A stretch of 64,000 nt of DNA from Flavobacterium sp. (lineage in GTDB: Bacteria; Bacteroidota; Bacteroidia; Flavobacteriales; Flavobacteriaceae). The DNA is taken from positions 124,001 through 188,000 of the forward strand of contig NZ_JAIXTJ010000042.1 of assembly GCF_027483985.1 (NCBI RefSeq), given 5' to 3'. How positions within the stretch are numbered: position 1 is the first letter of the stretch; each line of letters starts with the position of its first letter. A program made the position numbers and the translations under genes. This document shows, piece after piece, positions 25,658 to 31,116 of this stretch. A model generated the notes under the pieces. It had not been told where the DNA came from and made no database searches. It saw nothing but the letters and a program-made list of their open reading frames with translations.

Positions 25658-25706
25658 GTTGATTTTATTAAAAATATTCCATTATGGAATACCGAATGTT
25701 AATTAC

Positions 25707-25729
25707 GAATATTGCATATTGGAATATTC
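25707..25729. promoter_or_regulatory. Perfect inverted repeat, candidate operator for the downstream XRE regulator
   Basis: GAATATT-N9-AATATTC, 14 bp 5' of the ATG at 25743. Confidence 0.45.
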
Positions 25730-25742
25730 AAGCCTTTTTTGT

Positions 25743-25967
25743 ATGCAAGATAAAAAAATCAATCAATACATATCTCATCAATTGGTGAAGGCTCGTGAAG
25801 AGCTCAATTTAACTCAAAAGAATGTTCAGGAAAAAGGAATAATTAAACAAAGTAATCTTTCCAAAATAGAGAATGGAGTGCAGAATATTAGTGCATCAAA
25901 ACTTTTTATTCTAGCAAATTTTTATAAAAAACCAATATCATTTTTCTTTCATAATGAAAACCAATAA
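25743..25967 (+). CDS. XRE-family HTH regulator (candidate controller protein)
   Basis: KAREELNLTQKNVQEKGIIKQSNLSKIENGVQNISASKLFILANFYKKPISFFF; internal Met used as start. Confidence 0.85.
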   Translation: MQDKKINQYISHQLVKAREELNLTQKNVQEKGIIKQSNLSKIENGVQNISASKLFILANFYKKPISFFFHNENQ

Positions 25968-27033
25968 GAAATATAAAGCAATTGACATTTTCAGTGGAGC
26001 TGGCGGAATGAGTATTGGCGCTGCTATGGCAGGAATAAAAGTTGTTGCTGCTGTTGAATATGATAAACACGCTGCTGCAACTTTCAAAGTTAATCATCCT
26101 AATGTAGAAATTTTTCCGACAGATATTAGAGAAGTAACCTTATCAGATAAATATAAAAACCCATTTGTTTTATTTGGCGGCCCACCTTGTCAAGGTTTTT
26201 CAACTTCTAATACCAAAACAAGAAATTCTGAAAACTCAAATAATTCACTTTTCTGGGAATATATTAGACAAGTTAAAGAACTTTCTCCTGATTGGTTTGT
26301 TTTTGAAAATGTTGAAGGTATTAAGTCATTTGATGGAGGAACAGTAATTGATCGACTTGAAGAAGAGTTTAAAAAATTAGGTTATAAGACTAGTTGGAAA
26401 GTACTAACTGCTTCTGATTATGGTGTTCCACAAAATAGGAACAGATTTTTTATGATTGGAAATAAGCTAAATATTGATTTTGTATTTCCTGACAAAAAAA
26501 AACAAATTGTAACTGTTAAAGATGCACTTGAAGATTTACCTAATCTAAAAAATGGAGATTTGTTTGATGAATTAGAGTATAAACAAGCCTCAGTTAGTCC
26601 TTATGCAAAGTTAATGCGTGGAAAAGTAGAAAAAGCATCTCAAAATTATGTCTCAAAAAATAAAGAATATGTAGTTGAAAGATACAAACACATTAAGCCC
26701 GGTCAAAATTGGAAAGCAATTCCAGAGGAGTTAATGAAAAACTACACTGACACAAAAAATTGTCACAGTGGAATTTACAAAAGACTTGATCCCAATAGTC
26801 CATCAGTTGTTATTGCCAATTACAGAAAAAACATGTTGATTCATCCGTTTGAAAACAGAGGTCTTTCAGTAAGAGAGGCGGCTAGAATACAAAGTTTTCC
26901 TGATAATTTTATATTTAGAGGAAATCTATCTTTTCAACAACAACAAATTGGAAATGCTGTTCCGCCTTTATTAGCAAAAGCTATTTTTAAGCAAATAATT
27001 AAATTAACCCCTAATGGCAAAAACAAAAAATGA
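25954..27033 (+). CDS. DNA (cytosine-5) methyltransferase
   Basis: DIFSGAGGMS, GGPPCQGFS, ENVEG, QNRNR, IGNAVPP motifs; overlaps regulator. Confidence 0.97.
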   Translation: MKTNKKYKAIDIFSGAGGMSIGAAMAGIKVVAAVEYDKHAAATFKVNHPNVEIFPTDIREVTLSDKYKNPFVLFGGPPCQGFSTSNTKTRNSENSNNSLFWEYIRQVKELSPDWFVFENVEGIKSFDGGTVIDRLEEEFKKLGYKTSWKVLTASDYGVPQNRNRFFMIGNKLNIDFVFPDKKKQIVTVKDALEDLPNLKNGDLFDELEYKQASVSPYAKLMRGKVEKASQNYVSKNKEYVVERYKHIKPGQNWKAIPEELMKNYTDTKNCHSGIYKRLDPNSPSVVIANYRKNMLIHPFENRGLSVREAARIQSFPDNFIFRGNLSFQQQQIGNAVPPLLAKAIFKQIIKLTPNGKNKK

Positions 27034-29140
27034 GGAAAACTTTTTAAAGTTTAACTTTGACGTAAGTGCTTTTAGACTTTTAGGAAGAGAATTAATAACT
27101 GATAGAATAACTGCATTATTTGAGTTAGTAAAAAATTCTTATGACTCTAATGCTAATGATGTAACGATAGAATTTATAAAAATAAATCCTATTAATGATG
27201 AAACTAAAATTATAATCCGTGATGATGGTTTTGGGATGGATTATAGTGACATCAAAAATAGATGGATGGTAATTGGAACAAGCAGTAAACGTAGAGAAAG
27301 GAAAACACCTGAGCCCTATAACAGAATTGTATCTGGGAAAAAAGGGATTGGAAGGTTTGCTGTTGATAAACTTGGTGCTAAATTAATTTTAAAAACTAAG
27401 AAAAAAGGATCTAATCAATTGTTTTGTTTAGAAACAGATTGGATTAATTATTCAAAAATTGAAAACAACCAAATGTCTCTAAATTTTGGAGATTCTAAAG
27501 ATTTTTTTACTGATATTAAAAACAGATACTGGCTAGAAAATGCCGATACTGAATTACATGGAACTACTCTTGAAATATCAGGAATTGAAGAAGAATGGTC
27601 TGAAAAAGATATTGACCGTGCATACAAAGAACTATCAAAACTTGTTTCTCCTAATAATGATAGTAAACTATACCCATTTCATATAAATATTAAATCAGAA
27701 TATGAAAAGTATAAGAATGTTTCTATAAAGCCTCAAATAATTGATTTTGCAACTTTAAAATTTGAATTAGCATATAATTTAGAAGAACAAACGCAAGAAA
27801 TTTTACAGTTTAAAAGCAATCAATTAAATATAATTAATGTACCTATTAGAGATTGTGGACCTTTAAAAAGCACAATTTATTATTTTGACCAAGCTGCAAA
27901 GAATAAATATAAAAAACATTTTAACACTGAAATTGATGGTATAAAAATATATAGAGATGGTCTTATAACAACTCCATTTGCTGAGTATGTCGAAACACAA
28001 AATGAACAAAAAGACATTTTAGGTCTTGACAAAAGAAGATGGTCTGCTTTTTTTGATAAAATAGGAACTAGAGACCTTCTTGGATACATTGAGATAACAG
28101 ACAAATTAAATCCTTTTATTATTGAGTCTACAAATAGACAAGGTTTTGTTGATAATAAAGAATTTTATCAGGTCAAGAAATTTGTAATAGAACAAATTCA
28201 ACAAATTGAAAATTATTTAAAAAACCAAAAGACTTCATCAAGAGAAACTACTAAATCTGGGTTAAGCGGAGCTAGTGACAACATTAAAGATTTAAAAAGC
28301 GATATTTCAAGAATTAAAGACACTTCAAGTCCTGAGGTTAAAGAAGTTTTAACAAATATTGAGAAAAACCTTTCTAAATTACAAGGAACTGTAAATAAAA
28401 GCATAAATGATTTTAATAAATCAGAAGAAGAGAAAAAACAAATTGAAAATCTTTTATTTAGTTTGGTTTCATTACAGACATTCGCCGCGATGTTTTCCCA
28501 TATGACAAAACATACAATTGGGCATATAATAACCAGTGCTGAATATTTCAGTAATAATTTTCCAAACCCAAAGCTAGAAGATAGATTTTTAAAAATTTCT
28601 AGAAAGATTTATTCTGAAATGATAAAATTAAGAACTGGAGTTGATTTTATGCTTAAATACGCAAAAACAGATAGTAATTTTGAAGAAATAAGTATAAAAG
28701 AATTAATAACCAATCTTTTCAATAACATTTATGAAGAAATTTTATTAAAAGAAAAAATACAGACTGAAATAATTTTAGATAAAGATTTAATTTTGAATTA
28801 TAACAGAAAAGCAATTGAAGATATTTTAGATAATTTAATTTCAAACTCTATTAAAGCGCTTAAAAAACAATCTATTAAAAAAATCAAGTGTAGTGGAATT
28901 GTAAACAAGACTGATTTTACTTTAATTTTCTCTGACAATGGTTCAGGTATAGATGAGCAAGATAAATTTAGAATTTTCGACATCTTTTTTACTACAACTG
29001 CAGAAGATGGAGGAGCTGGAATGGGGCTTTATATGGCAAAAACTAGAATTGAAGCAATGGGTGGAGAAATTGAAGTTATAGAAAATGAGTTTAAACCAAC
29101 CGGTGCAACTTTTAAAATTACATTACCTTTTAAAAAATAG
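27014..29140 (+). CDS. Double-GHKL protein: N-terminal Hsp90/MORC-like ATPase and C-terminal histidine-kinase-like ATPase
   Basis: N: ALFELVKNSYDSNANDV, IIRDDGFGM, SGKKGIGRFAVDKLG. C: FSHMTKHTIGHI (H-box-like), ILDNLISNSIKAL, FSDNGSGI, GGAGMGLYMAKTRIEAMGG. Confidence 0.9.
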   Translation: MAKTKNEENFLKFNFDVSAFRLLGRELITDRITALFELVKNSYDSNANDVTIEFIKINPINDETKIIIRDDGFGMDYSDIKNRWMVIGTSSKRRERKTPEPYNRIVSGKKGIGRFAVDKLGAKLILKTKKKGSNQLFCLETDWINYSKIENNQMSLNFGDSKDFFTDIKNRYWLENADTELHGTTLEISGIEEEWSEKDIDRAYKELSKLVSPNNDSKLYPFHINIKSEYEKYKNVSIKPQIIDFATLKFELAYNLEEQTQEILQFKSNQLNIINVPIRDCGPLKSTIYYFDQAAKNKYKKHFNTEIDGIKIYRDGLITTPFAEYVETQNEQKDILGLDKRRWSAFFDKIGTRDLLGYIEITDKLNPFIIESTNRQGFVDNKEFYQVKKFVIEQIQQIENYLKNQKTSSRETTKSGLSGASDNIKDLKSDISRIKDTSSPEVKEVLTNIEKNLSKLQGTVNKSINDFNKSEEEKKQIENLLFSLVSLQTFAAMFSHMTKHTIGHIITSAEYFSNNFPNPKLEDRFLKISRKIYSEMIKLRTGVDFMLKYAKTDSNFEEISIKELITNLFNNIYEEILLKEKIQTEIILDKDLILNYNRKAIEDILDNLISNSIKALKKQSIKKIKCSGIVNKTDFTLIFSDNGSGIDEQDKFRIFDIFFTTTAEDGGAGMGLYMAKTRIEAMGGEIEVIENEFKPTGATFKITLPFKK

Positions 29141-29145
29141 GAATT

Positions 29146-29748
29146 ATGGAAGTAACATTTGTCGTTATTGATGATAACATTTCAATTAAAGAACATTCTT
29201 TACTCTATACCTTAGAAGACAAAGGTTTTAATGTTTTGTTTTTTTTGAAACCTGAAGAAGGTTTGGACTTTATAACAAATCATTTAGATCTCAATATGGT
29301 AGTTCTTTTAGACATTCAATTTTCTGCAACAGATAAAGAAGATGGTCATTCAATATTAAAAAAAATAAATGAAAAATCGGAATTAATTCCAGTAATCCTA
29401 TGGAGTGGTATAAACGAAGCAGAGGAAACATTTAGCGATTTTATTAATAATAAAGCTTTTGGATTTATTAGTAAAGACGCTAATATTCAAGAATCTTTAA
29501 TTCCTATCGATAAGGCATTACATTTTCTAAAAACCAATCTAGACAATACAATTGAAGACTGGATAATCCAAAAAAATGAAGATAAAGATATACCAATTTT
29601 TATATCTTCTGATGGCAATTCTTTCTCACTAAATGAAATTTTACACGAAATAAGAACCCAAAGCGAAATAGGAAAATCATTTTCAAGAAGATTAAATGAA
29701 CTTACAATTGATTTATTATTAAGAAAAAAAGAGAATTTAAATGGCTAA
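29146..29748 (+). CDS. Receiver-domain protein with short uncharacterised C-terminus
   Basis: Acidic pair D9/D10, phospho-acceptor D56 (VVLLDI), S87 (ILWSG), K110 (ISK). Confidence 0.85.
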   Translation: MEVTFVVIDDNISIKEHSLLYTLEDKGFNVLFFLKPEEGLDFITNHLDLNMVVLLDIQFSATDKEDGHSILKKINEKSELIPVILWSGINEAEETFSDFINNKAFGFISKDANIQESLIPIDKALHFLKTNLDNTIEDWIIQKNEDKDIPIFISSDGNSFSLNEILHEIRTQSEIGKSFSRRLNELTIDLLLRKKENLNG

Positions 29749-30352
29749 TACAATAATTGTAGTTGACGAAGCTGATTCAAAACTTGGTCATTTTTTTCAA
29801 ATATGTATTGAAGATTTGAACATGTTTTTTAATGATATAAATATACATCCAACACTATTAAATAGTGTAAAGCTTAACGACCTATCTGTTCAATTAACTA
29901 CAGAACCATTTGAATCGTTTGTTTTTGGAGCTTACTCTCATGGAAATAAAAATTGTTTAATTAAATCTAACACATCCTATGTGTCTACAACAATAAATAA
30001 TACATGCTTCAATAATTCTTTTTTTTATACATTTTCTTGTAGTTCAGGATATGAATTAGGAAATAACTTAATTGAAAATGGTTGTCTATGTTTTATAGGA
30101 TATAATAAAATAATTTCCATATGGAATACTCATATTAAGCCTTTTGTTATTTGTGCTAATCATGGGCTAAAACTATTTTATCATGGTTTAAGTACTTTTC
30201 AAATAGTAACCGAAATGAAAAAGCAATATAATCAAGAGATTGATGATCTTTACACTAAAGATTTTATGATTGCTTCAATTTTAAGAGAAAATAGAGATGC
30301 ATTAGTAAAACATGGTAATGATATCAACATAATAAATTTGACAAATGCGTAA
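29741..30352 (+). CDS. Putative caspase/CHAT-like cysteine peptidase
   Basis: H67 in FVFGAYSHGN and C100 in FFYTFSCSSGYELGNNL resemble the His-Cys dyad of clan CD; C-terminal LKLFYHGLSTFQIVTEMKKQY. Confidence 0.65.
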   Translation: MANTIIVVDEADSKLGHFFQICIEDLNMFFNDINIHPTLLNSVKLNDLSVQLTTEPFESFVFGAYSHGNKNCLIKSNTSYVSTTINNTCFNNSFFYTFSCSSGYELGNNLIENGCLCFIGYNKIISIWNTHIKPFVICANHGLKLFYHGLSTFQIVTEMKKQYNQEIDDLYTKDFMIASILRENRDALVKHGNDINIINLTNA

Positions 30353-31115
30353 AAACCTTTGGACGCGCGAAGAACTTATTCTTGCTTTCAATCTCTATTT
30401 GAAACTTCCATTTGGAAAAATGCATAAACGCACACCAGAGATTATTGGATTAGCAAATTTGCTTGGTAGAACTCCAAGTTCAATTGGAATGCGTTTGGGT
30501 AATTTTGCAAGTGTTGACCCTTTTCATCAAAACCGAGGAATTGGCGGTTTAAAAGGCGGTATGAATCAAGTAAAACCTATTTGGGATGAGTTTTTCAATA
30601 ATCAAGAAGAATTAGTTTTTTTAAGTGAACAAATTTTAGCACAAAAAGAAAACACATCTATAGAAAACAAATACCAAGAGTTACTTTTTGACATCAAAGA
30701 TTTAAAAGGAGAAATGGTTACTCGTGAAGTAAAAACAAGGGTAAATCAATCAGTATTTAGAGAAATGGTTCTAGCAAATTACAATACAAAATGCGCCATA
30801 ACTGGTATTGATATCCCTAAACTATTATTAGCAAGTCATATTGTTCCTTGGTCAAAAAACGAAAAAGAAAGATTAAACCCAGAAAACGGCATTTGCCTGT
30901 CAGCATTATACGACAAAGCTTTTGATAAAGGTTTAATCGGAATTGATTTAGATTATAAAATCCTTTTATCTAAAGATTTGAAAACTAAAAAAGATACTCC
31001 TTTTTACCAACAACATTTTGCTCCAATAGAAAATAAAAAAATAACAGAGGCTATTAGTTATTTTCCAAGAAAAGATTTTCTACAATATCATTTAGATGTC
31101 GTTTTTGAAAAATAA
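30345..31115 (+). CDS. HNH endonuclease (candidate restriction nuclease)
   Basis: CAITGIDIPKLLLASHIVPWSKNEKERLNPENGICLSALYDKAFDKGLIGID; overlaps preceding gene. Confidence 0.88.
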   Translation: MRKNLWTREELILAFNLYLKLPFGKMHKRTPEIIGLANLLGRTPSSIGMRLGNFASVDPFHQNRGIGGLKGGMNQVKPIWDEFFNNQEELVFLSEQILAQKENTSIENKYQELLFDIKDLKGEMVTREVKTRVNQSVFREMVLANYNTKCAITGIDIPKLLLASHIVPWSKNEKERLNPENGICLSALYDKAFDKGLIGIDLDYKILLSKDLKTKKDTPFYQQHFAPIENKKITEAISYFPRKDFLQYHLDVVFEK

Positions 31116-31116
31116 C

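Follow-up and report, generated by a model that had tools for sequence, protein, structure and literature searches.

Among the closest described relatives of the locus studied here are the HEF_HK/Response_reg_2 elements, which Bellieny-Rabelo et al. tied in 2021 to restriction-modification (R-M) systems and paraMORC ATPases (PMC8011034). In that comparative genomics survey, proteins with HATPase_c_3, kinase and HATPase_c domains were linked to R-M and adjoined genes for a receiver, a C5-cytosine DNA methyltransferase (MTase) and HNH_2; the latter was the best-represented endonuclease domain, Flavobacterium included, and the words “caspase” and “peptidase” are absent from the main text (PMC8011034). 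ParaMORC ATPases had been described in R-M operons by Iyer et al. in 2008 (PMC2292703), and the anti-phage activity of VcSduA, a GHKL-Shedu protein, needs both its ATPase and its C-terminal nuclease (PMC12137116). Clan CD peptidases serve as immune effectors in CBASS SAVED-CHAT and in the type III CRISPR Craspase. In Detocs, a defensive two-component system, the effector is reportedly fused to the receiver and degrades ATP. A sequence-only reading of a six-gene locus in a Flavobacterium sp. had stated that its combination of genes was not recognised as a described system. For the kinase, receiver, C5 MTase and HNH_2 genes this statement did not stand, as their association was published in 2021 (PMC8011034), and it stood for the fifth gene, a peptidase, which is absent there. 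No description of a peptidase in an MTase, kinase and receiver setting was found in the open literature; papers behind subscription were outside this search and may hold an earlier one. The peptidase appears to be what is new, a distinctly new output for a known association of kinase, receiver and MTase.

The DNA analyzed (the window) is a stretch of 64,000 nucleotides of contig NZ_JAIXTJ010000042.1, positions 124,001 to 188,000. The six plus-strand ORFs claimed in the sequence-only reading are all present at 25743–31115, and four of their five junctions are the overlaps that it listed (25954/25967, 27014/27033, 29741/29748 and 30345/30352), the fifth being the 5-nt gap, which we located at 29140/29146. 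Its family assignments (XRE, C5 MTase, double-GHKL, receiver and HNH) were matched by Pfam, with gene 5 left without a family. The features are collected in Table 1.

Table 1. Features of the cassette; positions are those of the window.
Feature	Position	Strand	Evidence
Inserted mobile cassette	25662..31116	+	Six genes and promoter; blastn homology limits, G+C
Palindrome AATATTCCATTATGGAATA, probable operator 1 of the XRE regulator	25673..25691	.	Inverted repeat; kept in L030
Imperfect palindrome GAATATTGCATATTGGAATATTC, probable operator 2	25707..25729	.	Inverted repeat; kept in L030
XRE/Cro-type HTH regulator, 74 aa (P0001), control-protein-like	25743..25967	+	HTH_3 1.1e-12 (Pfam)
C5-cytosine DNA methyltransferase, 359 aa (P0002), PCQ catalytic Cys79	25954..27033	+	DNA_methylase 3e-75; PADLOC MTase_II 4e-122
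Sensor kinase, 708 aa (P0003)	27014..29140	+	HATPase_c_3 9e-25 and HATPase_c 2e-23 (Pfam)
Response regulator, 200 aa (P0004), receiver 1–120 (D10, D56, S87, K110)	29146..29748	+	Response_reg 6.5e-9
C-terminal output region of P0004, residues 121–200	29506–29745	+	Co-varies with peptidase
Caspase-fold (clan CD) cysteine peptidase, 203 aa (P0005)	29741..30352	+	Invariant dyad, AlphaFold2, Foldseek
HNH_2 endonuclease, 256 aa (P0006), motif at about residues 150–201	30345..31115	+	HNH_2 7e-13; PADLOC HNH 3e-89

The G+C content was 28.1% in the inserted segment versus 33.5% in the window. In blastn comparisons with G719 (L139) and G727 (L140), two congeneric sister species that keep both flanks, homology stopped at 25661 and restarted at 31111/31117, indicating that the inserted segment consists of the six genes and their promoter only. 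At the insertion site, G719 carries a minus-strand gene for a putative helicase-like protein of 1046 aa together with a putative NUDIX-like gene (L139 5643–9166), and G727 carries an apparent XRE gene and helicase-like ORFs (L140 1676–3826) and has lost the neighboring choice-of-anchor gene. The site is thus occupied by a different set of genes in each of three sister species and looks like a hot spot for defense-type genes. The complete six-gene order, including XRE and HNH, also occurs in Flavobacterium hercynium at a different chromosomal site (L030). Both palindromes upstream of the XRE gene, spaced 35 bp from operator 2 to operator 1, are kept in that species, the remaining promoter DNA having diverged, and small HTH genes also stand ahead of the MTase in many relatives. 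By analogy with R-M control proteins, the XRE regulator and its two palindromic operators would time expression of the cassette.

The N-terminus of P0003 is a MORC/SMCHD1-like GHKL-S5 ATPase module (about residues 10–380) that leads into long coiled helices, a DHp domain with the phospho-acceptor His496 and a C-terminal HATPase_c domain at 598–707. A model of the first 478 residues (pLDDT 83.3) reproduced the GHKL-S5 module and gave SMCHD1, MORC3 and MORC2 as top matches (TM about 0.4–0.5), with further fold matches to Hsp90, GyrB, topoisomerase VI-B and MutL. The module thus combines the two marks of the MORC/paraMORC type, a MORC-like GHKL-S5 fold and the GHKL ATP motifs, which are 97–100% conserved. 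In the kinase alignment, H496 was present in 72 of 72 sequences, N611, K614, D641, G643 and G645 were invariant, and N41 was conserved at 99%. Together with the Asp triad of the receiver, this His and the N and G boxes mark P0003 and P0004 as a predicted two-component pair. The position after His496 is occupied by A, I or M, with no acidic residue. Most HisKA kinases have Glu or Asp right after the phospho-acceptor His, and hence the autokinase activity of P0003 could be weak or unusual. PADLOC returned a weak GHKL restriction-enzyme match for P0003, and the BbrUII/HgiDII family NF050001 matched it at 1e-20 across residues 12–201. Kinship with BbrUII/HgiDII through a common specificity domain found no support, as the match comprised the GHKL part only and 0 of 61 genomes exceeded the family cut-off.

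The DNA methyltransferase expected of a type II R-M system is represented by P0002, a prediction based on its DNA_methylase match and PCQ motif. The C5 MTases of relatives fell into two types, one in L053–L056 and others and one in L030–L050, with approximately 29% identity between the groups. Considering that the two unlike types are joined to the same signaling arm, methylation specificity has probably been swapped. Co-variation of MTase and kinase was too weak to be used as evidence of a shared specificity (0.75 for the N-terminal half of the kinase versus 0.68 for its C-terminal domain).

Sequence searches with P0005 were nearly silent: no family was found in Pfam, NCBIfam or PADLOC, no CHAT family among them, and phmmer of the single sequence against the PDB gave no match. 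A peptidase profile yielded weak caspase matches in the PDB (E 0.2), and Pfam, applied to the peptidase members, gave weak Peptidase_C25 matches in 3 of 71 and no other family. The identity was settled by fold comparison. An AlphaFold2 model of P0005 (pLDDT 96.8) was used for Foldseek, and the first 23 solved-structure matches all belonged to clan CD, the top matches being SAVED-CHAT (the best, E 4e-5), caspases, gingipain R and separase. The residues concerned are His67 (codon 29939) and Cys100 (codon 30038), together with Gly120. H67-G68 was found in 72 of 72 relatives, C100 in all 71 that reach that position, and Gly120 was nearly invariant. The His-Cys pair guessed by eye in the sequence-only reading was therefore exact. 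As modeled, P0005 has the His-Gly, the Cys after consecutive core strands and the caspase fold that characterize clan CD, and the earlier proposal of a caspase/CHAT-like peptidase is well supported by the dyad, the predicted fold and the clan CD matches. Searches with P0005 found no peptidase relative in viral contigs or plasmids, and a search with P0003 found no relative in viral contigs.

In the receiver alignment, D10 and D56 were present in 73 of 73 sequences, with S or T at position 87, and no recognized DNA-binding domain was detected in P0004 with Pfam. The relation between regulator and peptidase was computed over 64 loci after removal of kinase divergence. Residues 121–200 of the regulator co-varied with the peptidase (r 0.63), versus r 0.23 for residues 1–120. 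By 40-residue windows, the values were 0.19, 0.11 and 0.14 for 1–40, 41–80 and 81–120, and 0.51 and 0.52 for 121–160 and 161–200. The successive quarters of the peptidase gave 0.52, 0.43, 0.49 and 0.46 against residues 121–200, with no decay along the protein. The co-variation may be due in part to co-inheritance or co-transfer of adjacent DNA; linkage alone is less likely, since a correlation that rises stepwise at residue 120 and does not fall off along the peptidase fits an interaction between regulator tail and peptidase better. This pattern suggests that the C-terminal region of the regulator, rather than the receiver domain, activates the peptidase. Peptidase alleles are replaced or hypervariable within otherwise similar cassettes. 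Between the window and L030, identity was 70% for XRE, 82% for the MTase, 88% for the kinase, 77% for the receiver, 39% for the peptidase and 75% for HNH; between L033 and L034, it was 93% for the kinase and 37% for the peptidase.

To place the cassette among its relatives, 84,980 species genomes were scanned with the kinase alignment, and the best 80 loci of 323 relatives were taken. After profile building, the peptidase-bearing set comprised 71 loci, including G173 and one plasmid record, from Bacteroidota, Bacillota and one spirochaete MAG. The order MTase, kinase, receiver, peptidase was found in 67 of these 71 loci (best 80 of 323 kinase relatives plus additions), so that the gene order, for which a check across Bacteroidota had been proposed, proved to be conserved there and in other phyla. 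Three of the four exceptions had no recognized MTase directly upstream (one of them, L052, begins at a contig end), and one had no intact receiver ORF. The core genes overlap or stand a few nt apart. The conserved core is accordingly four genes, namely those for the C5 MTase, the fusion of MORC-like GHKL ATPase and histidine kinase, the receiver and the peptidase. PADLOC gave no match for P0004 or P0005, and the proposed check of the locus against named systems thus found no known component in genes 4 and 5. Neighbors of the relatives' cassettes include McrB-like AAA_5, Vsr, MutH, AbiH and further C5 MTases.

Because the scan was conditioned on the kinase, the peptidase profile alone was also searched in 393 genomes of one order. 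It gave 11 matches in 10 genomes, and 10 of the 11, three of them very diverged and one an interrupted copy, belonged to kinase-regulator-peptidase cassettes; a cassette-borne peptidase was present in 9 of the 393 genomes. The peptidase family is scarce, occurring in 1 of 396 genomes of the phylum and with 2 strong matches in 301 genomes of the taxonomic family. The single match outside any such cassette, at L163 2696–3823, was a protein of 375 aa in which His-Gly and Cys are similarly arranged. One genome carried a second, interrupted kinase-receiver-peptidase end, whose peptidase is reported to contain an in-frame stop (L161, G811:C325).

The place of HNH in the cassette is of a different kind. 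Of 72 loci, only four, namely the window, L030, L057 and L069, have it directly after the peptidase, the peptidase is the final co-directional gene in many cassettes, and cassettes without HNH include those of G173 (L013) and Winogradskyella (L034). The general system therefore cannot need HNH, and we rejected it as an essential core part on this distribution. As a candidate for the cognate site-specific endonuclease, an obligatory partner in type II R-M, HNH is present here and missing from most cassettes. HNH is, in turn, the output gene of sister MTase-kinase-receiver-HNH cassettes that have no peptidase (L126, L129 and L131). The HNH of the window is 82% identical to that of L129, the kinases being 33% identical, and 75% identical to that of L030, with kinases at 88%; this disagreement argues that HNH is an exchangeable accessory. 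The chain from proteolytic activation to DNA cleavage by HNH, put forward in the sequence-only reading, is consequently unsupported in that form. As a separate observation, regulators of approximately 300 aa in eight peptidase-less sister MTase-kinase cassettes (L103, L104, L105, L107, L108, L109, L129 and L131) all carry in the C-terminal half an Rx4H motif (e.g., RNEFAH) that, as a motif only, resembles HEPN RNases.

Like the HEF_HK/Response_reg_2 systems, the cassette has a kinase with HATPase_c_3, DHp and HATPase_c whose gene adjoins those for a receiver and a C5 MTase. Unlike them, P0003 has no HEF_HK (PF19191) match at E 0.5, and P0004 is above the cut-off only for the canonical Response_reg (PF00072), not for Response_reg_2 (PF19192). 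HEF_HK had zero matches in this genome and is present in other genomes of the phylum, and the HEF_HK loci examined have no peptidase gene; membership in these systems was rejected by the domain tests. With paraMORC/MORC, VcSduA and BbrUII/HgiDII the cassette shares an N-terminal MORC-type GHKL-S5 module in a DNA-defense setting. The C-terminus of P0003 is a histidine kinase and not, as in VcSduA, a nuclease, and its output would thus pass by phosphotransfer. A clan CD peptidase, whose activity here is predicted, is shared with CBASS SAVED-CHAT and Craspase. In contrast to CBASS and CRISPR CHAT effectors, the cassette has no SAVED, TPR, cyclase or CRISPR parts, and the peptidase is reduced to a minimal domain of 203 aa whose gene adjoins that of a response regulator, with MTase, kinase and receiver genes as neighbors. 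Like Detocs, the cassette would use a phosphorelay as a defense signal; unlike Detocs, it includes a DNA MTase, and its receiver and peptidase are separate genes.

As a whole, the conserved cassette, its domains and its mobile, patchy distribution support the earlier description of a candidate defense operon in which R-M is joined to a two-component arm. We consider it probable that this is a mobile, R-M-derived cassette against foreign DNA whose recognition step feeds into a phosphorelay and a protease for an abortive defense. In such a scheme, the MTase would mark host DNA, and the MORC-like GHKL-S5 module would use ATP to clamp onto DNA that lacks modification at the MTase site or is otherwise foreign. 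Clamping would trigger autophosphorylation of the invariant His496, from which the phosphoryl group would pass to the receiver's Asp56, and the phosphorylated regulator might then release or activate the peptidase through residues 121–200. The peptidase would cut host or phage proteins, and growth would halt before phage release. At the window locus HNH, which is common to the sister phosphorelay-R-M system, would be a second output that cuts DNA directly. Sensing of unmethylated DNA by the clamp, proposed because the MTase is near-constant and because of the MORC and VcSduA precedents (PMC2292703, PMC12137116), appears to be the weakest step; the kinase may instead respond to ATP, to DNA ends or to a protein of the phage. 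The peptidase could also act on cassette proteins only and hence be a regulator, and HNH may do the actual restriction at the window locus. We provisionally take the protease as the general effector and HNH as the second output at this locus. We give about even chances to a more specific version of this scheme, an R-M system that signals rather than cuts: the clamp-kinase senses missing self-methylation, and phosphotransfer activates a caspase-fold protease, with specificity and regulator tail exchanged together as one module. In sister systems of such a phosphorelay-gated bacterial caspase pathway, the role of output would fall to HNH or to a predicted HEPN-like RNase tail.

An ordinary type II-like R-M system, with HNH as the restriction enzyme and with kinase, receiver and peptidase as its control, whether by activation of HNH or by destruction of HNH, MTase or regulator, follows the chain of the sequence-only reading and appears unlikely, even though HNH lies within the transferred segment, is the output gene of the sister MTase-kinase-receiver-HNH cassettes and is reported in such a setting (PMC8011034), and although GHKL proteins include the BbrUII/HgiDII restriction enzymes matched by P0003. 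The rarity of HNH after the peptidase, the many cassettes that finish with the peptidase and the clash between HNH and kinase histories, as in L129, speak against it. Two-component parts are usually regulatory, and the regulator has a peptidase partner and no recognized DNA-binding domain; these points favor epigenetic or stress signaling outside defense, in which MTase and phosphorelay report the state of the DNA and a few cellular regulators are the substrates of the peptidase. We regard such signaling as very unlikely, considering the patchy distribution described above, the variable content of the insertion site, the fast turnover of the peptidase and the adjoining defense genes. Selfish post-segregational killing, in which loss of the MTase exposes unmethylated host sites that trigger kinase and peptidase, with any effect on phage being secondary, would suit the R-M-like logic, the XRE regulator with tandem operators and the mobile cassette. 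As the main function it has only a slim chance in our estimate, and it is compatible with, rather than exclusive of, a phosphorelay-protease defense.

If the phosphorelay-protease defense is correct, a two-component phosphorelay would connect methylation-based recognition of self and non-self to a caspase-like executioner, and we have not previously seen these three branches of bacterial biology described together. The GHKL/MORC modules in R-M operons would gain a testable sensor role and the kinase-receiver association of 2021 an output, and the naturally swapped protease alleles would be a resource on how response regulators activate proteases.

Two further observations concern the surroundings of individual cassettes. 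A record labeled as a Stenotrophomonas rhizophila plasmid (L027, CP065518.1) contains a segment of 31% G+C that combines an MTase-kinase-receiver-peptidase cassette with a SIR2-like gene and genes for Tn7-like transposition; this G+C content is unexpected for Stenotrophomonas, and the record may therefore contain foreign or mislabeled DNA. Among gut Bacteroidales (L042, L045, L047, L069–L072, L089 and L095), a second C5 MTase and further R-M genes often follow directly after the peptidase, and some of these compound R-M islands include a McrB-like AAA_5.
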